From: Rhodospirillales bacterium
GTDB lineage: Bacteria > Pseudomonadota > Alphaproteobacteria > Acetobacterales > Acetobacteraceae
NCBI GenBank assembly: GCA_015654825.1
Contig: JAATGE010000402.1
Location: 1-10,138 of the forward strand
Reading direction: 5' to 3'
DNA: 10,138 bases
A program made the position numbers and the translations under genes. This document shows positions 1 through 9,729 of the stretch, one piece after another (position 1 is the stretch's first letter; each line of letters starts with the position of its first letter). Under the pieces are notes generated by a model that was not told the DNA's origin, did no database searches, and saw only the letters and a list, made by a program, of their open reading frames with translations.

Positions 1-528
1 CATGCCGATCGGCGCCACCAGATCGATCACCCGCGGCGTGAAATCCTTTTGCGGCCCCTTCGCGACGCTCTGGAAATTCTCCATTTCCATCTTCAACCGA
101 CGGTCGGGATAAAGCGGCGTCAAATTGTCGAAATTGATGCGGTGCTTGACCGCCTCGGGATTTTCGAAGTTGACCGCATCGACTTTCAGCAGCGCGAAGT
201 AGCGCTCGCCGTCCTTCGGCGCGCGGATCTGGCCTTCCACCGTATCGCCGGTGCGCAATCCGTGGCGGCGCACCTGGTTCGGGCTGACATAGATATCGTC
301 GGGGCCGGGAAGGTAGTTGCTCTGCGGATTGCGCAGGAAGCCGAACCCATCGGGCAATATTTCCAGTGTGCCGTCGCTGTGAATGGCCTGGTCGCTTTCC
401 GCCAGGTTCTTCAGGATGGCGAACATCATGTCCTGCTTGCGCAAGGACGACGCATTTTCAACCTGGAGGGATTCGGCAAAGCTGAGCAGGTCGGCGGGGG
501 ATTTGGCCTTGAGTTCGGCAAGATGCAT
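1..528 (-). CDS. rho: Transcription termination factor Rho, N-terminal part (gene runs off the left edge)
   Basis: Rho is the hexameric RNA-dependent ATPase that binds C-rich nascent RNA and releases RNA polymerase. The 176 visible residues cover the N-terminal helical Rho_N domain (about 1-45, [15 protein letters not shown] and [12 protein letters not shown]) and the cold-shock-like RNA-binding domain (about 50-125, with GFGFLR at 61-66, GPDDIYVSP at 75-83, RTGD at 92-95 and [10 protein letters not shown] at 107-116). The frame leaves the window at ...VAPIGM, just before the Walker A segment expected in the family, so no catalytic residue can be checked. The start is the ATG at 528-526: it matches the family N-terminus, and the next upstream in-frame codons contain no start. 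Only a weak AGGG lies upstream. rho beside hemJ and hemE is a familiar alphaproteobacterial arrangement. The 301-bp gap before it suggests its own promoter. Confidence 0.97.
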
Positions 529-829: not shown

Positions 830-1279
830 TCAGAACGGCCGCACCACCACCATCACCACCGCGACCACCATCAGCAGCGTCGGCACTTCATTTACTATTC
901 GGAAAAACCTTTGTGTGCGTGCGTTTCGATCGTGCAGGAAATCCCGCCGCCAGCGTCCCAGCGCGCCATGCACGCCCGCCAGGCTCAATCCCGCCGCCAG
1001 CTTTACGTAGAACCAGCCCCGGTCCCACTCCACCGCGCCCGGCGTCAGTGCCAGCATGATGCCGAATACGAATGTAGCGGTCATCGCCGGCAGCAATATC
1101 TGCTTGTAGAGCCGCCGCTCCATGACCTTGAAGCGCTCGCTGCTTTCGGACCCCGGCTTCGTTTCGCAATGATAGACATACAGCCGCGGCAGGTACAGCA
1201 TCGCCGCCATCCAGGCGATCACCGCGACGATGTGCAGCGCCTTGGTCCACGGATACAGCGCCAGCAGCACCGCGCTCAT
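830..1279 (-). CDS. hemJ: Protoporphyrinogen IX oxidase HemJ (UPF0093 membrane protein)
   Basis: HemJ is the membrane-bound, oxygen-independent enzyme that oxidises protoporphyrinogen IX to protoporphyrin IX in many alphaproteobacteria and cyanobacteria that lack HemG and HemY. The 149-residue product has about four hydrophobic segments (roughly 10-32, 60-80, 90-112, 130-147). Family signatures are visible: [20 protein letters not shown] with His16, then [22 protein letters not shown], and YVKLAAG with Lys93. His16 and Lys93 correspond by eye to conserved, functionally important residues of the family. An upstream in-frame start (1399) exists, but the extension is Arg-rich, unlike HemJ, and lies inside the preceding gene. 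The ATG at 1279 overlaps that gene's TGA as ATGA, which supports it. HemJ feeds HemH, encoded two genes upstream. I am confident of the family; the activity is inferred from it. Confidence 0.93.
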
Positions 1280-1950
1280 GCCCTGCGTCCGCGCCGGGGG
1301 ACATCGAACAGCGTCGGCAGCGCCGCCAGCGCCCGCAACGGCCATGCCCCGAGCTCGGCAAACTCCGTCCCGTCGCCGCTCGGAACATAGGCGACGCAAG
1401 CCATGCCCGCGGCGATCGCGGCCAGCACCCCCGGCCGCGAATCCTCCACCACCAGGCAGGCCCCGGGTGAAACGCCCTCGGCCGCCGCGGCCGCCAGGAA
1501 CAGGTCGGGCGCCGGTTTTCCGATGCCGACATCCTGCGCGCTATGCACCCGCCCTGCCACCAGCCGCGACAATCCGGTCACCGCGAACTTGATCGCCATC
1601 TCCTGGTGGCTGGAGTTGCTGGCAATCCGATAGGGAACTCCGGACGCCGCGGTCCCCTTCAGCGCCAGATCCGCGCCCGGGATCAGGCTCACGCTCTCCG
1701 GCAGGATGGCAATCAGGTTCGCCTGCATCATGGCCGGCCAATTGGCGGGCAGGGCACGGCCGGACCCCAGTTCGAACACCGCCCGCAAATCATGAAACCG
1801 ACGCCCGACAAACGCGTCGGCCTCCGCCTCGGTCGGCCGCCATCCCAAACGCGCCGCCTCCTCCGTCAGCACGCGCTGCGCCGCCGCCTCACTGTCCACC
1901 AGCACACCGTCGCAGTCGAAAATCACCAGCTCCAGCGGTTCCGGCGTCAT
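1276..1950 (-). CDS. HAD-superfamily phosphatase, phosphoglycolate phosphatase / beta-phosphoglucomutase-like
   Basis: A 224-residue HAD hydrolase with all four motifs. Motif I is DCDGVLVDSE (12-21; nucleophile Asp12, acid-base Asp14), motif II is ASNSS (Ser111), motif III is GKPAPD (Lys145), and motif IV is VVEDS (Glu169, Asp170). Residues about 22-90 form the helical C1 cap typical of the Gph/PgmB group. It should be a soluble, Mg2+-dependent phosphomonoesterase or phosphomutase. The substrate cannot be told from sequence: phosphoglycolate, a sugar phosphate or a nucleotide are all possible. The start ATG at 1950-1948 overlaps the hemH stop as ATGA, and its own TGA overlaps the hemJ start the same way, so it is co-translated with heme genes although no heme step is known to need such an enzyme. 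No residues look missing. Confidence 0.9.
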   Translation of the reverse strand: MTPEPLELVIFDCDGVLVDSEAAAQRVLTEEAARLGWRPTEAEADAFVGRRFHDLRAVFELGSGRALPANWPAMMQANLIAILPESVSLIPGADLALKGTAASGVPYRIASNSSHQEMAIKFAVTGLSRLVAGRVHSAQDVGIGKPAPDLFLAAAAAEGVSPGACLVVEDSRPGVLAAIAAGMACVAYVPSGDGTEFAELGAWPLRALAALPTLFDVPRRGRRA

Positions 1951-2990
1951 GACAACGGTAACGGACAGTCGGTGTGGCGCGCCGGGCAAACCCGACCGCC
2001 GGAAAAACTGCACAGGCCCGGCCCGCGTCCGCGCCCCGTCACCACCAGGTCGGCCAGTGCCGCGATGAACCCGCCGTCGCTGTTCTGCGCCGGCGCCCTG
2101 AAATACCCCGGCACGCCAAGCTTCTCCGCCAGCTCCCGGTACTCGATGTCGAGCTCCACCAGCGTTTCCGAATGGTCGGAGACAAACGCGATCGGCACCA
2201 CCAGCACGGCAACCTTGTCGTTCGCCGCCTGCTCGATCGCCGCCTCGGTCGAAGGTTCGAGCCATTTCACCGGCGTCACCCGCGACTGGTAGCAGACAAC
2301 GTGATCGAGCCCCGGCTCGCCCAGCGCCGCCACGATTTTCGCGGCCGTTCCCTCCACCTGGTACTGGTAGGGGTCGCCCTTCAACACGATCGATTCCGGC
2401 AACCCATGGGCCGAAAACAGCACCCGCAACGGCGCCGGCCCGGCCGCCCGTGCCCGCTCCAGCGCGCCCCGAACGATCGACGCCGTCGCCGCCACATAGC
2501 CGCCATCGGCAAAAAAACAGCACAGCGTCGTGACCGGCCTGGCCAGCCCGGCGCGCGCCGCCGCCTCCCGCCAGTTCTTCAGCGAGCTGCCCGTCGTGGT
2601 GCTGGAATATTGCGGATACAGCGGCAGCAGCACCACCTCGTCCGGGTCCCACGAACGCACTTCCCGGGCGGTTTCCAGCGCGAACGGATGCCAGTAGCGC
2701 ATGGCGACAAACGCCCGCGCCCCGATCCCCCGTTCGGCCAGCGCCCTCTCCAGCGCCCGCCCCTGCGCCTGTGTAAGCTCCAGCAGCGGCGACTTGCCGC
2801 CGATCCGCGCATAGATCTCCGCCGCCGGCCCAGCCCGCCCACGCGCGATCACCCATGCCAGCAAAGGGCGCACAAAGAACGGCACCCGCAGAATGGCCGG
2901 ATCGCGAAACAGGTTCAGCAGGAACGGCTTGACGGCTTGCGGGCTGTCGGGCCCGCCCAGATTGAACAGAACAACCGCGAGTTTTTTCAT
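1947..2990 (-). CDS. hemH: Ferrochelatase HemH, with a cysteine-bearing C-terminal tail
   Basis: HemH inserts Fe2+ into protoporphyrin IX, the last step of protoheme synthesis, usually at the inner face of the cytoplasmic membrane. The 347 residues show the family landmarks: VVLFNLGGPD (6-15), PLYPQYSSTTTGSS (123-136), LFSAHGLPES (191-200) with catalytic His195, GDPYQYQ (205-211), CYQSRVTPVKWLEPST (233-248) and FVSDHSETLVELDIEY (269-284) with catalytic Glu275. The tail after residue 315 holds Cys327, Cys335 and Cys342. There is also a Cys157-Cys158 pair inside the protein. Some bacterial ferrochelatases, including those of Caulobacter and Mycobacterium tuberculosis, bind a [2Fe-2S] cluster through four cysteines, and this tail could do so. 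The ATG at 2990 overlaps the hemE TGA by 4 nt. Length is normal for tailed forms. Confidence 0.97.
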   Translation of the reverse strand: MKKLAVVLFNLGGPDSPQAVKPFLLNLFRDPAILRVPFFVRPLLAWVIARGRAGPAAEIYARIGGKSPLLELTQAQGRALERALAERGIGARAFVAMRYWHPFALETAREVRSWDPDEVVLLPLYPQYSSTTTGSSLKNWREAAARAGLARPVTTLCCFFADGGYVAATASIVRGALERARAAGPAPLRVLFSAHGLPESIVLKGDPYQYQVEGTAAKIVAALGEPGLDHVVCYQSRVTPVKWLEPSTEAAIEQAANDKVAVLVVPIAFVSDHSETLVELDIEYRELAEKLGVPGYFRAPAQNSDGGFIAALADLVVTGRGRGPGLCSFSGGRVCPARHTDCPLPLS

Positions 2991-4015
2991 GCGACCTGTC
3001 GAAGTGCGTCCACCAGGTCCGCAACGTGCCCGGGCGGCGTCTGCGGCAAGATACCGTGACCAAGATTGAATATATGGGGTCGCCCCCGCAGCGCGTCACG
3101 AATGCGCCCGGTTTCCTCGCGCAGCGCATCGCCGCCGGCAATCAGCAGCATCGGATCCAGGTTGCCCTGCACGGCCACGGTCTCCGGCAGCCCGGCGGCA
3201 ATGCCCGCGGCATCCACACCGGTATCCAGCCCCACGCAATCCACCCCGGTCTGCTCCACATAATCCGCCACCAGCGTGCCGGCCAGGCGCGGAAAGCCGA
3301 TGATCTTCACGCCCGGAAACCGCTGGTTCAGCGCGGCCACGATCGCCGCGGTCGGCGCGATCACCCGGCTCGCGAACTGCCGCGGCGGCAGGATCCCCGC
3401 CCAACTGTCGAACAGCATCACCGCATCGGCGCCCGCCTCGATCTGCGCCGCCAGGTACTCCACCGTGCCTTGCACCAGCAGCTCGATCAGCCGATCGAAA
3501 AACACCGGGTGGCTGTAGGACAGCGTGCGCGTCGCCGCGAAATCGCGCGATCCGCCTCCCTCCACCATATAGCAGGCAACGGTAAACGGACCGCCTGCAA
3601 ACCCTAGCAGCGTGCAGGCTGGCGGCAGCGCCGCCCGCACCCGGCGCACCGTCTCCATGACCGGCGCCGTGCGCTCCGGCGCCCGCGCGATCTCCAGGCT
3701 CCCCAGCGCCGCCACATCCCGCACCGGCGCCATCACCGGCCCTTCGCCGTCGACAAAATTCAGCTCCTGACCCATCGCCCAGGGCAGGATCAGGATATCG
3801 CTGAACAGGATCGCCGCATCCATGCCGAAACGACGCACCGGCTGCAGCGTGATCTCCGTCGCCAGGTCGGGCGTCGTGCAGCGCGCGATAAAGCCGCCCT
3901 CCTGCCTGATCGCCTGGTATTCCGGCAGATAGCGCCCGGCCTGGCGCATCAGCCAGACAGGCGGCGGCCAAACCGGATCGCCGGCGAGAACGCGCAACAC
4001 AGGTTTTTCGGTCAT
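2987..4015 (-). CDS. hemE: Uroporphyrinogen III decarboxylase HemE
   Basis: HemE removes four carboxyl groups from uroporphyrinogen III to give coproporphyrinogen III in the cytoplasm. The 342 residues match the usual length and carry both signatures: PPVWLMRQAGRYLPEY (18-33, with Arg24 and Arg28 for substrate carboxylates) and GFAGGPFTVACYMVEG (138-153, Tyr149). Other landmarks are FSDILILP (71-78, with the central catalytic-pocket Asp73), LFDSWAG (201-207), GNLDP (284-288) and NLGHGILPQTPP (317-328, with His320). The ATG at 4015 has AGGA about 10 nt upstream. It is the first gene of the hemE-hemH-HAD-hemJ operon, and its promoter must lie in the 313-bp gap shared with the divergent DUF299 gene. 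In Caulobacter the hemE promoter region lies inside the chromosomal origin. Confidence 0.98.
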   Translation of the reverse strand: MTEKPVLRVLAGDPVWPPPVWLMRQAGRYLPEYQAIRQEGGFIARCTTPDLATEITLQPVRRFGMDAAILFSDILILPWAMGQELNFVDGEGPVMAPVRDVAALGSLEIARAPERTAPVMETVRRVRAALPPACTLLGFAGGPFTVACYMVEGGGSRDFAATRTLSYSHPVFFDRLIELLVQGTVEYLAAQIEAGADAVMLFDSWAGILPPRQFASRVIAPTAAIVAALNQRFPGVKIIGFPRLAGTLVADYVEQTGVDCVGLDTGVDAAGIAAGLPETVAVQGNLDPMLLIAGGDALREETGRIRDALRGRPHIFNLGHGILPQTPPGHVADLVDALRQVA

Positions 4016-4328
4016 CTGGCGTCCTGAGGAGCGGTATCCCCCGCCCCCTCTTCCTAGAAAGGATTCTTATTTAGTTAAATAGGAGCGGTAGTAGGGGCTG
4101 TGCGAAACGGGGTACCCGGAACCCGCGCCCGCCGCACCTTTCTGTCCACCGCCGGCCCCGCCGCCAACTCCTTGGCATACCACCCTTTCTTCCACTTATC
4201 CGGAAGCGCCGGACGATGCCTCGATTCCATCCGCCGAATTTGGCGCCGCACCTCTTATCCCCGCTCACCCGCCGCCACCCGACCGAAACAGGCTGGCACC
4301 CCCGGTTATCCCCGCTATCCTCGCTCCC
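4016..4328. other. hemE / DUF299 divergent gap: candidate chromosomal replication origin (oriC) and hemE promoter region
   Basis: No gene is visible in these 313 bp. Next to hemE is an A+T-rich patch (4055-4081) in a GC-rich setting, containing ATTTA-GT-TAAAT (4069-4080); on the minus strand it includes TTAACTAA, a weak likeness to a CtrA half-site. TATCC cores lie in one orientation at 4035-4039, 4196-4204 (TTATCCGGA), 4255-4263 and 4306-4314 (both TTATCCCCG) and 4315-4323 (CTATCCTCG). The three TTATCC sites match the DnaA box TTATCCACA at 7 of 9 positions and the other two at about 6. None is perfect. Known context: the RP001-hemE-hemH-RP883 cluster marks the origin in Caulobacter and the putative origin in Rickettsia, and Caulobacter's lies beside hemE. 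Against an origin: no clear GC-skew switch, and the gap is short. The sites could instead be operators or promoter elements. Confidence 0.5.
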
Positions 4329-5201
4329 ATGACCCAGGACCGGATCAACCTCCACCTCGTCTCCGACGCGACCGGCGAAACCCTGAACTCGATCGCGCGC
4401 GCAACCGTCGCGCAGTTCGAGCCGGCACGCTTCATCTATCATCGCTGGAGCCTGATCCGCACCCGCTTCCAGCTGCATCGCGTGCTGGAAGGCATCGAGG
4501 CGGAGCCCGGCCCCGTGCTCTCGACCGTCGTCGACCGCGCCCTGCGCACCGACCTCGAATCGACCTGCCAGCGCCTCGGCGTCACCGTGGTGAACGTCCT
4601 CGATCCGGTCCTGGCCATGCTGCAGGAACAGCTCGGCGCCGCCGCCACCGCGCGTCCCGGCAAGCAATACGTGCTGGATGCGGATTATTTCCGCCGCATC
4701 GATGCCATTCATTTCGTGCTCGCCCACGATGATGGCCAGGCCCAGGCCGGCATCGCCGAAGCCGACGTCATCCTCGTCGGCCACTCCCGCAGCAGCAAAA
4801 CGCCGACCAGCTTCTATCTGGCCAACCGCGGCGTCAAAGCCGCGAACGTGCCTCTGGTGCCAGGCACACCCGATCCCCCCGGCCTCGAAAATCCGCACTG
4901 CCCGGTCATCGGTCTTTCGATCGATGCCGAATCGCTGATCGAAATCCGCCGCCATCGCCTGAAACTGATCGCCCAGGGCCAGGGCGCCGGTCAACACATC
5001 CGCCACGACACCGGCGATTACGTCGACCTCGATGCCGTCAAGGCGGAATTGCTCTGGGCCCGCCGCCTCTGCACCCGCCGCGGCTGGCCAGTCGTCGACG
5101 TCACCCGCCGCTCCATCGAAGAAACCGCGGCGACGGTGCTGCAACTGATGCAAGCCTGGGAAACCCGCCGTAGCCGTAACGTGGCACGGGTGGTGGAGTA
5201 G
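4329..5201 (+). CDS. Pyruvate phosphate dikinase / PEP synthase regulatory protein (DUF299 bifunctional kinase-pyrophosphorylase)
   Basis: This family controls pyruvate phosphate dikinase or PEP synthase by ADP-dependent phosphorylation of an active-site threonine and Pi-dependent removal of that phosphate, switching pyruvate-to-PEP flux. The 290 residues show [16 protein letters not shown] (6-21), the P-loop-like [18 protein letters not shown] (151-168), [10 protein letters not shown] (174-183) and the C-terminal [12 protein letters not shown] (257-268). The second P-loop residue is His (GHSR), where I expect a small aliphatic residue. The ATG at 4329 gives the family N-terminus. It has no Shine-Dalgarno site: the leader is C/T-rich and includes TTATCCCCGCTATCC. 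It is the counterpart of RP001 beside hemE. In many alphaproteobacteria maf, aroE and coaE follow it; here a repeat and convergent mnmA follow, so synteny breaks. The target enzyme is not in the window. Confidence 0.95.
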
Positions 5202-5212
5202 CAAAGGATAGG

Positions 5213-5392
5213 AGAAGGCCAGGGGCTCTGCCCCTGGACCCCGCTGGGGCCAGTAGGCCCCAGACCCCATTTCATTGCGGGGAACGGCGAAGCCTGGAAA
5301 CCTATGGATTTTCTGGCTTCGCCGTCTCCCCCCAGTATCGGGGGTCTGGGGCCTCAGGCCCCAGCGTGTCCAGGGCAGAGCCCTGGCCTTAT
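5213..5392. repeat. Nested palindromic element: two inverted REP-like units around an inner inverted repeat (REPIN/MITE-like)
   Basis: The left unit (about 5215-5268) holds two hairpins: CCAGGGGC-TCT-GCCCCTGG (5219-5237) and CTGGGGCC-AGTA-GGCCCCAG (5244-5263), followed by ACCCC. The right unit (about 5341-5390) is its near-exact reverse complement: CTGGGGCC-TCA-GGCCCCAG (5346-5364) and CCAGGGC-AGA-GCCCTGG (5370-5386). Between them is a third inverted repeat, ACGGCGAAGCC (5284-5294) / GGCTTCGCCGT (5315-5325), with GGGG and CCCC just outside. The whole can fold into one long cruciform or RNA stem. It sits between converging genes, a usual place for REP-type repeats. No transposase and no clear target-site duplication are visible. 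A singlet copy of the outer core is at 6683-6710. The REPIN class is inferred from structure. Confidence 0.85.
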
Positions 5393-5528: not shown

Positions 5529-6590
5529 TCAATCCGCTGCGCGGATGATCCCGCCGCCCAGCACGCGGCTTCCGGCATAGAACACACACGCCTGCCCCGG
5601 CGCCGGCAGGGCCGCTTCGGCCAGCGTAACCATGGCGCCATCGGCCGTTGCGCGAACGTTCGCCGGGCGCAGCCGGTCGCGCGCCCGCAACCGCACCGTG
5701 CACTCAAGCCCCTCCGGCAGCGCATCGATCAGCCAGTTCACCGCGCGCAGCTTCACCTGCGTCGTGCCGCGATCGCGCGGCGCCACGACAACGCGGCGCG
5801 TCGTCGCATCCAGCGCCACCACCGCCAGCCGCTGCCCGCCGCCTTGCAACCCCAGCCGCTTGGACTGGCCCACCGTGTAGTGCGCGATGCCGCGATGCCG
5901 CCCCAGCACGGCACCCGTTTCGCTGACGATATCGCCCGGCACCGCGGCGTCGGGCCGCACCCGCGTCACCAGGTCGGCATAGCTGCCGGAGGGAACGAAG
6001 CAGATATCCTGGCTGTCCGGCTTTTCCGCGACCGGCAGCGCGAGCCGTGCGGCATGCCCGCGCACGGTGCCCTTATCCGGCATTGCGCCCAGCGGAAACC
6101 GGCAGAAATCGAGCTGATCGCGCGTGGTGGCGTAAAGAAACCAGCTCTGGTCGCGCGCCGCATCGGCCGCCGCATGCAGCTCCGCCCCGCCGGCGCCGTC
6201 CTCTCGCCGCACATAGTGCCCGGTCGCAAGTGCCGCCGCGCCCAGATCCCGCGCCAGGCCGAGCAGGTCGGTAAACTTCACACCCTGGTTGCAGCTGATG
6301 CACGGCACCGGCGTTTCGCCGGCGGCATAACTATCGGCAAACGGCTGGATGACGGTGGCGCGGAACCGCTCCTCGGCATTGATCACGTAATGCGGAATGC
6401 CGAGCCGATCGGCCACATTGCGCGCGTCATGGATATCCTGTCCCGCACAGCACGCACCGCGCCGCGCCGAGGCCGCCCCATGGTCGTACAGCTGCAGCGT
6501 AACGCCGATCACCTCGTGACCGGCCTCGGCCAGCAGCCCGGCCGTCACCGAACTATCGACGCCCCCCGACATGGCAACAACGATACGCAC
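5529..6590 (-). CDS. mnmA: tRNA-specific 2-thiouridylase MnmA
   Basis: MnmA thiolates U34 of tRNA-Lys, -Glu and -Gln, using ATP to adenylate the base and a persulfide sulfur relayed to its own cysteine. The 353 residues carry the PP-loop [10 protein letters not shown] (6-15), the catalytic Cys100 in [11 protein letters not shown] (96-106), LATGHY (121-126), and the second catalytic Cys197 in [18 protein letters not shown] (190-207). The tail half ([12 protein letters not shown] onward) matches the central and beta-barrel domains. Length is normal. The start is the GTG at 6590, which gives the family N-terminus [10 protein letters not shown]; an in-frame TGA lies 10 nt upstream, and the only ATG alternative (6572) would cut into the PP-loop. 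AGGAG lies about 13 nt before the GTG, a long spacing. A weak promoter-like pair (TTGGCT at 6681-6676, TTACAT at 6657-6652) lies upstream. Confidence 0.97.
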
Positions 6591-7125: not shown

Positions 7126-8496
7126 TCACGCCAGCCTCAGCGCCAGCCCCAGCAAGGCGCAAACCCCCAGCACCACCGGCACGCTTTGCCGCAGCCGAAA
7201 GATCAGCACCACCGCCACCACGGCCACCGCGGCCGCCGGCACGACAAGGCTTGAAACCACCGGCAGTTCCAGCGCGGCGGGCCCGGCGCGCAGCGTCACG
7301 GTCGCCGCGAACAGCGCATGCAGCGCGAACCACAGCGCCAGGTTCGCAATCACCCCCACCACGCTCGCCGTCACCGCCGCCAGCGCCGCCGCCAGCCGCC
7401 GGTTTTCCGCCAGCCGCTCCACCAGCGGCGCGCCCAGGAACACGAACGTGAAGCACGGCAGGAACGTCACCCAAAGCGTCAGCACGCTGGCCGCCACCCC
7501 GCCCGCAATGCCGTGCAGCGGCCCCGGCGCCCGATACCCCGCGAGAAACCCGACGAACTGCAGCACCAGGATCAGCGGCCCCGGCGTGGTTTCCGCCAGC
7601 CCCAGCCCGGCCAGCATCTCGGCGGGAGATACCCAGTGGTACGCATGCACCGCGTCCTGCGCCACATAAGCCAGCACCGCGTAGGCGCCGCCGACGGTCA
7701 CCACGGCCATCTTGGAGAAAAACCACGCCACGTCGGCATAAGTCCCCGGCGCGAATGCCGCCAGCAGCCCCACCGGCGCCAACCACAGCACCAGCGCCAG
7801 CATTCCGGCCCGCCGCGCCGCCGCCGCCTGCCGCGCCAGCCGCCCCGGATGGATCGCCAGCACCCGCTCGATCAGCCCCGGCGCATCGCCATGCGCGCCG
7901 CCATGCGAAGCGGCCCTGAACCAGCCCGCCCGCGCATACCCGACCAGCCCCGCCGCCACGACGACCAGCGGAAACGGCACCGCGAACACATACAGCGCCA
8001 CGAACGCCGCCCCCGCCACCGCCCACGACGCCCGCGTCTTCAGCGCCCGCCGACCGATCCGCAGCACCGCCTGCAGCACGATCGCCAGCACCGCGCACTT
8101 CAACCCGAAGAAAATGCCGTCCACCGCCGGCACCTGCCCCAGCGTCGCGTACAGCACCGAAAGCCCCAGCAGCACCACGGCGCCCGGCAGCACGAACAAC
8201 GTCCCCGCCGCGACGCCCCCGGCCGCGCCGTGTATGACCCAGCCCAGATACGTCGCCAGCTGCTGCGCCTCCGGCCCCGGCAGCAGCGAGCAAAAACTCA
8301 GCGCATGCAGAAACCGCCGCTCCCCCAGCCAGTGCCGCTCCTCGACGATCTCCCGATGCATCATGGCGATCTGTCCGGCCGGCCCGCCGAACGACAGCAC
8401 CCCGATTTTTAGCCACACCGCCAGTGTCGCCCAGAACCCGGGCAGCAGCGGCAGCTCCGTCCCCAGCGGGACGGAGAATTCCGCCGCGTCGTTCAT
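7126..8496 (-). CDS. chrA: Chromate transporter ChrA, long-chain (two-domain) form
   Basis: ChrA (CHR family) exports chromate from the cytoplasm across the inner membrane and gives chromate resistance. The 456 residues contain the two homologous CHR halves. The N-terminal half has WLKIGVLSFGGPAGQIAMMH (28-47, FGGP at 36-39) and LLPGPEAQQLATYLGW (71-86). The C-terminal half has FFSKMAVVTVGGAYAVLAYV (259-278) and ETTPGPLILVLQFVGF (302-317). About ten or more hydrophobic segments are spread over the length, with a polar, basic, His-containing linker (about 188-230) between the halves. The frame is open far upstream, but the start is the ATG at 8496, which overlaps the chrB TGA as ATGA and gives the normal N-terminus. 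Transport may instead serve sulfate or another oxyanion, so the substrate is inferred from the family and the chrB partner. Confidence 0.95.
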   Translation of the reverse strand: MNDAAEFSVPLGTELPLLPGFWATLAVWLKIGVLSFGGPAGQIAMMHREIVEERHWLGERRFLHALSFCSLLPGPEAQQLATYLGWVIHGAAGGVAAGTLFVLPGAVVLLGLSVLYATLGQVPAVDGIFFGLKCAVLAIVLQAVLRIGRRALKTRASWAVAGAAFVALYVFAVPFPLVVVAAGLVGYARAGWFRAASHGGAHGDAPGLIERVLAIHPGRLARQAAAARRAGMLALVLWLAPVGLLAAFAPGTYADVAWFFSKMAVVTVGGAYAVLAYVAQDAVHAYHWVSPAEMLAGLGLAETTPGPLILVLQFVGFLAGYRAPGPLHGIAGGVAASVLTLWVTFLPCFTFVFLGAPLVERLAENRRLAAALAAVTASVVGVIANLALWFALHALFAATVTLRAGPAALELPVVSSLVVPAAAVAVVAVVLIFRLRQSVPVVLGVCALLGLALRLA

Positions 8497-9335
8497 ACCG
8501 CCGGCTCCGCGGCCGCCTTCTCGCCCCGCGCCGGGCCAGGCCAGGTATGCGTCTCCGCCAGCGCGTCCCGGCTCCACCGCCAGAACGCGTCGTACAGCGA
8601 CAGCCCGACCTCGAGCTGCGCCAGATCGTCCCGGAACATGCGCGAAAGCCCGAGCGACGCCGCCAGCAGCCCCGCGCACTGCGGCGCCAGGTCCAGCCGC
8701 GCCGTATCCGCCCCGCGCACGATGACCGCGAGCCGCGACAACCCCGCGACACCCCCCAGCCCGAACTCCTGGATCATGACGTCGAAGGTGCATTGCTCGC
8801 CGCGGTGGCTCCAGAAGCAATCCTCGATGTCGAACGGCGTGGCGCCAAATCGCGCGGCCGTGCCCGCCACCTCCCCCGGCGCCACGAACAGGAACACCGC
8901 GCCGGGATCGACGAACCGCCGGATCAGCCAGGGGCAGGCGACCCGGTCCACTTTCGGCCGCGCCCGCGTCACCCACACCGTGCGCCCGCGCGCATCCGGC
9001 GGCGGCACCGCACTCGCGTTCAGCAGCGGTCCCCGTGCACCGCGCCACGCCGCCAGGCCCCCCTCCAGCACCTCTGCGGCAATTCCCGCATGCCGCAACC
9101 AGGCCGCCACCCCCGCGCTCAGGCCGCCGTCCGCGCAGACGACCACGGCCGCGCGCCCGGCCAGCGGAGCCGCCCAAACCTCCATTTGCCCCGCATCGCG
9201 CCGCACCGCGCCCGGCACCAGGAACGGTTCCGCCGAGCGCTCCGGATCGTTGCGAACATCGATAATGGCGGGCGCGTCGTGCGTCCCGATCAGCCGCATC
9301 AGGTGCGCGGCCGTCAGCGTCGAAGGAGCCGGCAT
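8493..9335 (-). CDS. chrB: Rhodanese-ChrB fusion: sulfurtransferase / chromate resistance protein
   Basis: The 280 residues join two domains. Residues about 5-105 form a rhodanese domain with IIDVRNDPE (24-32), FLVPGAVR (38-45), and the active-site loop CADGGLS (67-73) whose Cys67 would carry the persulfide. Residues about 118-270 form a ChrB C-terminal domain: WVTRARPKVDRVACPWLIRR (121-140), FDIEDCFWSHRGEQCTFD (168-185) and WPGPARGEK near the end. The N-terminal DNA-binding part of classical ChrB regulators is absent, so it is probably not a repressor of the usual kind. The ATG at 9335 fits the domain edge, with AAGGG upstream. It is the first gene of the chrB-chrA pair. The rhodanese half could handle thiols or sulfur during chromate stress, which is inference. 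Symbol by homology of the C-terminal half only. Confidence 0.88.
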   Translation of the reverse strand: MPAPSTLTAAHLMRLIGTHDAPAIIDVRNDPERSAEPFLVPGAVRRDAGQMEVWAAPLAGRAAVVVCADGGLSAGVAAWLRHAGIAAEVLEGGLAAWRGARGPLLNASAVPPPDARGRTVWVTRARPKVDRVACPWLIRRFVDPGAVFLFVAPGEVAGTAARFGATPFDIEDCFWSHRGEQCTFDVMIQEFGLGGVAGLSRLAVIVRGADTARLDLAPQCAGLLAASLGLSRMFRDDLAQLEVGLSLYDAFWRWSRDALAETHTWPGPARGEKAAAEPAV

Positions 9336-9729
9336 GGTCCCAATCCCTTAATCGCAGGAAGGACGCGATGCTTCGGCTGTCGCCTCACGGGGCGATCGCA
9401 CCACCCCTCGCCCGCACGGTGGCGAACCAATCCAGCCGCTGTCAAGCGCCGGCAGCCCAATCCGCCAGGCAATCGCATTTGAAAACCGCCACCGCCCGCT
9501 CCAACTGGCGTCGGCGAACAAGGAACAAGTAACAAAAGTTTTTGCTTCTTTTTTCAAAAAGAAGTACTTGTTCTTTTTTGAAAAAAAGAACCAAAAAACT
9601 TTTGTTAATTTGGCTTTCGTTTCGGGTCGAAGCGTCCGGCTCGAATGTCGTGCCAAGAAAATTCCAAATGCGATTCCCCTCGCTGCCCGCCTTGCCGCCC
9701 CGCCTGCCCCGGTGTACCGCCCGCCACCC
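9336..9729. promoter_or_regulatory. Divergent gap between chrB and the glycosyltransferase gene
   Basis: The 394-bp gap holds no convincing gene. Near chrB is a short imperfect hairpin (TCGCC / GGCGA around 9379-9394). A TTGACA hexamer on the minus strand (9445-9440), about 105 nt from the chrB start, is the best -35 candidate, but I see no good -10 element after it. The middle is taken up by the A+T-rich palindrome at 9530-9607, annotated separately. The stretch 9608-9729 before the glycosyltransferase is C/T-rich and shows no Shine-Dalgarno site or clear promoter. Confidence 0.45.
9530..9607. repeat. 78-bp A+T-rich palindrome with an outer stem and two inner hairpins
   Basis: The outer arms TAACAAAAGTTTTTG (9530-9544) and CAAAAAACTTTTGTTA (9592-9607) are inverted repeats with one extra A. 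Inside are two side-by-side hairpins: CTTCTTTTT / AAAAAGAAG (9545-9553, 9556-9564) and GTTCTTTTTT / AAAAAAGAAC (9570-9579, 9582-9591). The whole can fold into a three-way junction. Base composition is far more A+T-rich than anything else in the window. I recall similar runs often found between genes in Acetobacteraceae, so it is probably a member of a dispersed repeat family; this is recollection and was not searched. Its T-runs could also give bidirectional termination. Confidence 0.8.

Follow-up and report, generated by a model that had tools for sequence, protein, structure and literature searches.

In Caulobacter crescentus, the chromosomal origin of replication (Cori) lies between hemE and CC0001, a gene of the COG1806 family, and comprises an A+T-rich region and several DnaA sites (PMC1914354). 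It also has five CtrA sites and an IHF site, and weak G- and W-box sites have been reported there (PMC4468827). The putative origin of Rickettsia prowazekii has the same border genes, hemE and COG1806 (PMC1914354), and is likewise reported to contain CtrA and IHF sites. In the basal unwinding system, the DnaA-trio has the consensus 3'-GAT-5' (PMC8287927). An initial annotation of the DNA studied here, a stretch of 10,138 nucleotides that we call the window, proposed the gap between hemE and a DUF299 gene as oriC or a relic of it and referred to the cluster at the Caulobacter and Rickettsia origins, a reference that the published description confirms (PMC1914354). The location of the origin was already known from those two organisms, and the architecture that we describe for the family of the host appears to be undescribed: among the matches listed in a literature search on the oriC of Acetobacteraceae and on GTAC at origins, with subscription journals mostly outside its reach, no title describes the element.

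The hemE-ppsR Gap and its Setting

The window is one contig (C160) of a host assembly of 680 contigs that is 66% complete; the host is a soil bacterium. Its ppsR gene is 84-87% identical to the best five named matches, whose contigs are labeled Acetobacteraceae (three), Rhodospirillales and Acidobacteria. The gene order is as follows:

1-528, minus strand: rho fragment (Pfam)
830-1279, minus strand: hemJ (Pfam)
1276-1950, minus strand: HAD hydrolase (Pfam)
1947-2990, minus strand: hemH (Pfam)
2987-4015, minus strand: hemE, left border gene of the gap (PF01208; TIGR01464 above its cut-off)
4016-4328, no strand: candidate oriC, the gap element of 313 bp (match to sequence model R2, described below, at 4080-4325, E=1e-28)
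4329-5201, plus strand: ppsR (DUF299/COG1806 family), right border gene (PF03618; NF003742)
5529-6590, minus strand: mnmA, right of ppsR
Right of mnmA, in this order: chrA, chrB and a glycosyltransferase fragment

Matches to Pfam and TIGR01464 agree with the divergent arrangement of hemE and DUF299 around the 313-bp gap, and Pfam backs the order rho-hemJ-HAD-hemH-hemE/ppsR. The sequence observations made earlier inside the gap were also reproduced. Three TTATCC sites start at 4196, 4255 and 4306 and five TATCC cores at 4035, 4197, 4256, 4307 and 4316, all of them on the plus strand; at least three TTATCC on the same strand arose in two of 2000 dinucleotide shuffles of the gap, and five TATCC in none of the 2000. 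The three TTATCC sites agree with TTATCCACA at seven of nine positions, and, as had been noted, no box is perfect: every site in the gap differs from TTATCCACA at two or more positions. The A+T-rich patch (4055-4081, 27 bases) reaches 81% A+T vs 32% for the window; 12 other 27-mers of the window are equally A+T-rich, all inside 9534-9611, and the gap as a whole has merely 36% A+T vs 32%. A scan of the gap with Rfam found no RNA. From left to right, the element is made up of these parts:

4055-4081: A+T-rich patch, the probable unwinding element; 81% A+T, coinciding with A-rich columns in the alignments of relatives
4089-4094, plus strand: TAGTAG, putatively DnaA-trio-like from its sequence; G-rich GGGC separates it from the left DnaA-box slot
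4099-4107, minus strand: left DnaA-box slot; most relatives have a TGTGGATAA-like box, the window the degenerate TTTCGCACA, with three mismatches
4109-4117: GGGGTACCC, a strongly conserved palindrome adjoining the left box; 48 of the 66 gaps that could be anchored have GGTACC here, the choice of anchor itself favoring TGTGGA and GGTAC
4142-4150, plus strand: CTGTCCACC, at about -185 from ppsR; a copy of the conserved TCCACA box that has diverged
4196-4204, plus strand: TTATCCGGA, a DnaA-box-like site
4255-4263, plus strand: TTATCCCCG, DnaA-box-like, in a conserved slot at about -70
4306-4314, plus strand: TTATCCCCG, which opens the conserved right tandem pair
4315-4323, plus strand: CTATCCTCG, which abuts the previous site and completes the right pair, ending 5 bp before the start of ppsR

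The window thus shares with Cori the gene pair, an A+T-rich region and several DnaA sites, a likeness that, as for R. prowazekii, was drawn by description only; the published passages on Cori that we cite make no mention of the box arrangement of the family or of GGGGTACCC. The CtrA and IHF sites reported for both organisms are unmatched here: the gap holds no CtrA-like site with up to one mismatch and one with two, and no IHF-like site with up to one mismatch from the consensus. Control of the window's origin by CtrA is accordingly unsupported. We do not count the lack of CtrA sites as excluding an origin of the Cori type because members without them have been described in the same source (PMC1914354). 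The basal unwinding system offers a further possible parallel, as the box slot, the G-rich spacer, TAGTAG and the A+T-rich patch follow one another in the same order; unlike in that system, the box of the window is degenerate, and the resemblance of TAGTAG to the trio consensus (PMC8287927) is one without a chance baseline.

The Element Is Conserved in the Family

Relatives were fetched by their ppsR, and 85 gaps of 150-700 bp between hemE and ppsR were collected; with 10 identical or duplicate gaps discarded, 75 remained. Neither L064 (1235 bp) nor loci without hemE entered the set. The gap measures 280-345 bp in 65 of the 75, with a median of 304 bp. When motif totals over the 75 gaps were compared with those of 40 shuffled sets, the conservation of TTATCC that the initial annotation had named as a check was evident, with 135 copies on the plus strand vs 7.3 in shuffles. 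Perfect DnaA boxes numbered 31 vs 0.1, boxes with up to one mismatch 123 vs 3.8, GANTC 178 vs 101, and CtrA-like sites 10 vs 3.6; an IHF-like site (up to one mismatch from the consensus) occurs in 19 of the 75 gaps, a count without a shuffle baseline. The right tandem pair stands out, as CCCCG.TATCC is present in 47 of the 75 gaps vs a Markov mean of 0.18.

The aligned gaps have a common order of parts. Starting at the hemE side, an A-rich tract gives way to a stretch that is rich in G and poor in C; next come a DnaA box pointing left, with GGGGTACCC after it, a TCCACA box pointing right and one TTATCCCCG, and the tandem TTATCCCCG-CTATCCTC stands immediately before ppsR. In the window the right tandem pair is intact, as are the -70 box and GGGGTACCC; the aligned same-genus and closest-kin gaps retain the right pair and GGTACCC. 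The same-genus gap also retains TAGTAG, and its left box is imperfect too. Slots could be anchored in all but nine of the 75 gaps; over the 66 anchored ones the offsets of TAG/TAA are scattered, an observation without a chance baseline.

By analogy with the basal unwinding system (PMC8287927), this order of parts suggests how an origin of this type may work. DnaA would load on two sets of sites, the TTATCC copies that point right and the box slot that points left (4099-4107), and its oligomer would then extend across the G-rich spacer and the TAGTAG tract into the A+T-rich patch (4055-4081), which would open for the helicase.

Two sequence models were built, R1 from 40 gaps and R2 from 37, hand-chosen among 64 of similar length. 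Because the training set of R1 contained the window, the window was withheld from R2, together with the same-genus locus and L033-L036; R2 still matched the window with the E value given above, the next-best match in 113 kb of host sequence having E=0.009. R1, whose training set includes many relatives besides the window and which was run with stricter filters in the family search, has matches at E<=0.001 in 269 of 299 family genomes, one per genome in all but four of these, and is without a match in the other 30. The origin linked to hemE is thereby extended to most of the family as sampled, and a searchable model of the family oriC is provided. In the class, R2 matches 7 of 190 genomes, two of which belong to the host's own family; three of the remaining five matches adjoin hemE and ppsR and two do not. 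With so few matches, and three of five of those outside the family lying at hemE and ppsR, it is the location and not the sequence that is shared.

For the location within genomes, 22 genomes of 1-30 contigs were searched (12 of them single-contig), and 13, of 1-9 contigs each, gave a match at E<=1e-6. The element lies upstream of hemE in all 13, and in seven of them ppsR is missing from the 1.5 kb examined on that side, which argues against a mere promoter of ppsR. Among 17 weaker loci, 3 adjoin hemE and 14 do not. The motif GTGGATANCGGGGTACC was tried on its own as a marker and rejected as unspecific: with up to two mismatches its 26 matches in 20 genomes included 11 at the element, while a backward control gave 71; with one mismatch, 7 of 8 matches are at the element.

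parS, GC Skew and dnaA in Related Genomes

We then considered independent signs of an origin in relatives. Of the 13 genomes with a strong match, 11 have a parS-like site, defined as one with up to one mismatch from the consensus, at a distance of 8 to about 100 kb from the element, and the other two (G070 and G087) have none. The sites are exact in nine genomes, for which the product of the chances of such closeness is about 4e-15 if the positions are taken as independent and uniform (some lengths were rounded). Stray additional parS-like sites occur in G238, G172, G315 and G023. In four outgroups from the class, ppsR lies 6-17 kb from parS. The host's own parS-like sites are on contigs other than that of the window.

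GC skew was sampled in six genomes at 20 stretches of 20 kb per chromosome and fitted with the terminus set opposite the origin. The best-fit origin falls 30 kb from the element in G014, 33 kb in G087, 58 kb in G238 and 85 kb in G026, and far from it in the other two (411 kb in G259 and 554 kb in G239). Positions that outscored the element, of 200, numbered 0 in G014, G087 and G026, 10 in G238, 47 in G259 and 37 in G239. G014, a strongly skewed genome, gives a clean picture, with the switch within a few kb of the element: all nine samples 30-110 kb to the left are negative and all five samples 22-80 kb to the right are positive, and the flanking 20 kb have mean skews of -0.042 and +0.039. The flanks in G087, a genome of four contigs in which ppsR is present, give -0.026 and +0.022. 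In G026 both 20-kb flanks are G-rich and the switch is some 30-45 kb off the element, and for G238 a free two-arm fit prefers a place other than the element. Third-position skew corrected for gene strand agrees for G087 and roughly for G026, gives no signal for G239, and shifts the optimum of G259 to 1.55-1.75 Mb, the element being at 0.74 Mb; it yields no fit for G238, where one sampled stretch had no genes. In a local comparison of 37 relatives with enough flanking sequence (means -0.008 and +0.014), 27 were more G-rich to the right of the element than to its left, which is weak evidence either way because the means are small and several loci are strongly one-sided. The proposal that the gap is oriC or a relic of it is supported by the closeness of parS, by the conservation of TTATCC and by the skew, which in four of the six chromosomes sampled switches at the element or close to it.

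Between dnaA and the element there are 34 kb in G087 and 908-1749 kb in the other five sampled genomes. In G014 (C1:1964900-1966336) and G026 (C1:601711-603066) dnaA is near the switch from plus to minus skew, that is, the terminus, and in the five sampled genomes that have parS it is at least 0.9 Mb from parS. With dnaA near the terminus in two of the six, these data suggest that using dnaA as the anchor may misplace the origin in some members of the family.

GTAC Sites in the Probable Origins of the Family

The palindrome next to the left box is itself a family trait, as GGTACC occurs in 51 of the 75 gaps vs a Markov mean of 4.7. Over the same gaps GTAC occurs 101 times vs 42 in the Markov model, and 43 copies are left after the conserved slot is removed. 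In seven origins without an adjacent ppsR (G238, G026, G023, G172, G071, G150 and G014) GTAC occurs 7-13 times in 360 bp, a count that, for three of them, was reached by 1, 0 and 0 of 6560 stretches sampled from their genomes; the six origins with ppsR adjacent have 0 or 1. Among 20 further origins, from 30 genomes hand-picked as likely members of the array-bearing branch and hence a non-random sample, 18 hold 8-15 GTAC, each above all 200 Markov versions, with 6 in G124 and none in G120. Overall, 25 of 27 selected origins (L118, L121, L123, L124, L125, L127, L129 and L311-L330, 20 of them hand-picked) carry 7-15 GTAC in 360-380 bp; the window carries one. The branch with the array presumably corresponds to the acetic acid bacteria.

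In E. coli, oriC carries an array of GATC sites with SeqA. The origins of some relatives resemble it in holding dense short palindromes, with the difference that the palindrome is GTAC, of which the window holds a single copy. We tentatively propose, at somewhat less than even chances, that a factor reading GTAC, either a binding protein or a methyl mark with its sensor, might control the origins of the family, with the one site GGGGTACCC in the window multiplied to an array of 7-15 sites in the branch; by analogy, this array could be a functional parallel of the GATC/SeqA array. The array in some relatives is a concrete and testable lead to an undescribed control of initiation.

Is the Gap an Active Origin in the Host?

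The plus strand had been said to look C-rich on both sides of the gap, and this proved stronger than claimed, with skews of -0.120 on the left, -0.179 on the right and -0.159 over the whole window. At third codon positions nine of the ten genes of the window have a negative plus-strand skew (-0.13 to -0.57), whichever side of the gap they lie on and whichever strand encodes them, the rho fragment alone being positive (+0.09); no skew switch was found within the window. For comparison, 13 other host contigs, chosen for carrying the palindromic repeat described below, range from -0.093 to +0.131. A long-established origin should show a change of sign at the gap. A recent inversion, or an origin shifted by tens of kb as the skew of G026 suggests, would explain what is seen. 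As there is no local switch, activity in the host organism is something that we infer. Strong skew of the same sign on both sides of the element also occurs in L038, L040 and L099 (positive) and in L110 (negative).

The right side of the locus differs from that of relatives. At 5215-5390, the window has an imperfect palindromic repeat of about 180 bp, which gives 86 match rows in the host genome, many places being counted on both strands. The gene order departs from that of relatives directly after this repeat, right of ppsR, and mnmA, which follows there, is found at this place in no other fetched locus.

On balance it is likely that the gap is a DnaA-dependent oriC inherited at the hemE/DUF299 position of the Alphaproteobacteria, and in the broader sense it is very probably an oriC or the direct descendant of one, in a genome of the Acetobacteraceae type. 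The most serious competitor holds that the gap is an ancestral oriC from which initiation has moved by tens of kb in the host lineage, leaving boxes that decay. The one-sided skew of the whole window, the eroded left box, the break in synteny at the palindromic repeat, the displaced switch in G026 and the same-sign loci L038, L040, L099 and L110 all fit such a relic, but decay is hard to reconcile with a right pair, a -70 box and GGGGTACCC that are intact, with the right pair and GGTACCC kept in the same genus and in the closest kin, and with a right flank more G-rich than the left in most of the 37 relatives; we consider this reading improbable.

Two other explanations carry far less weight. 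Divergent genes, and a right pair that stops 5 bp short of the start of ppsR, are what a shared promoter or regulatory region would look like, with the TATCC motifs as transcription factor sites that have no part in replication. Such a region should not be expected to stay at hemE where no ppsR adjoins it, as the element does in seven of 13 genomes, nor to hold perfect DnaA boxes 31 times in 75 gaps vs 0.1 in shuffles, nor to have parS and skew switches clustering at it, and we regard it as very unlikely. No more credible, and rated slightly lower still, is an oriC at dnaA, near which the origin of the acetic acid bacterium Acetobacter pasteurianus 386B was predicted in its published account (PMC3751514). 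In G087, where dnaA and the element are 34 kb apart, the two places are not separated; the terminus-like switch near dnaA in G014 and G026, and the distance between dnaA and parS wherever parS is present (five sampled genomes), speak against dnaA, A. pasteurianus 386B being outside this sample. We therefore retain the inherited hemE-linked oriC as the reading of the gap.

Apart from the candidate origin, the window contains, at 9333-9412 on the minus strand, a chrB-a RNA (Rfam RF03078) just upstream of chrB (8493-9335, PF09828) and chrA.
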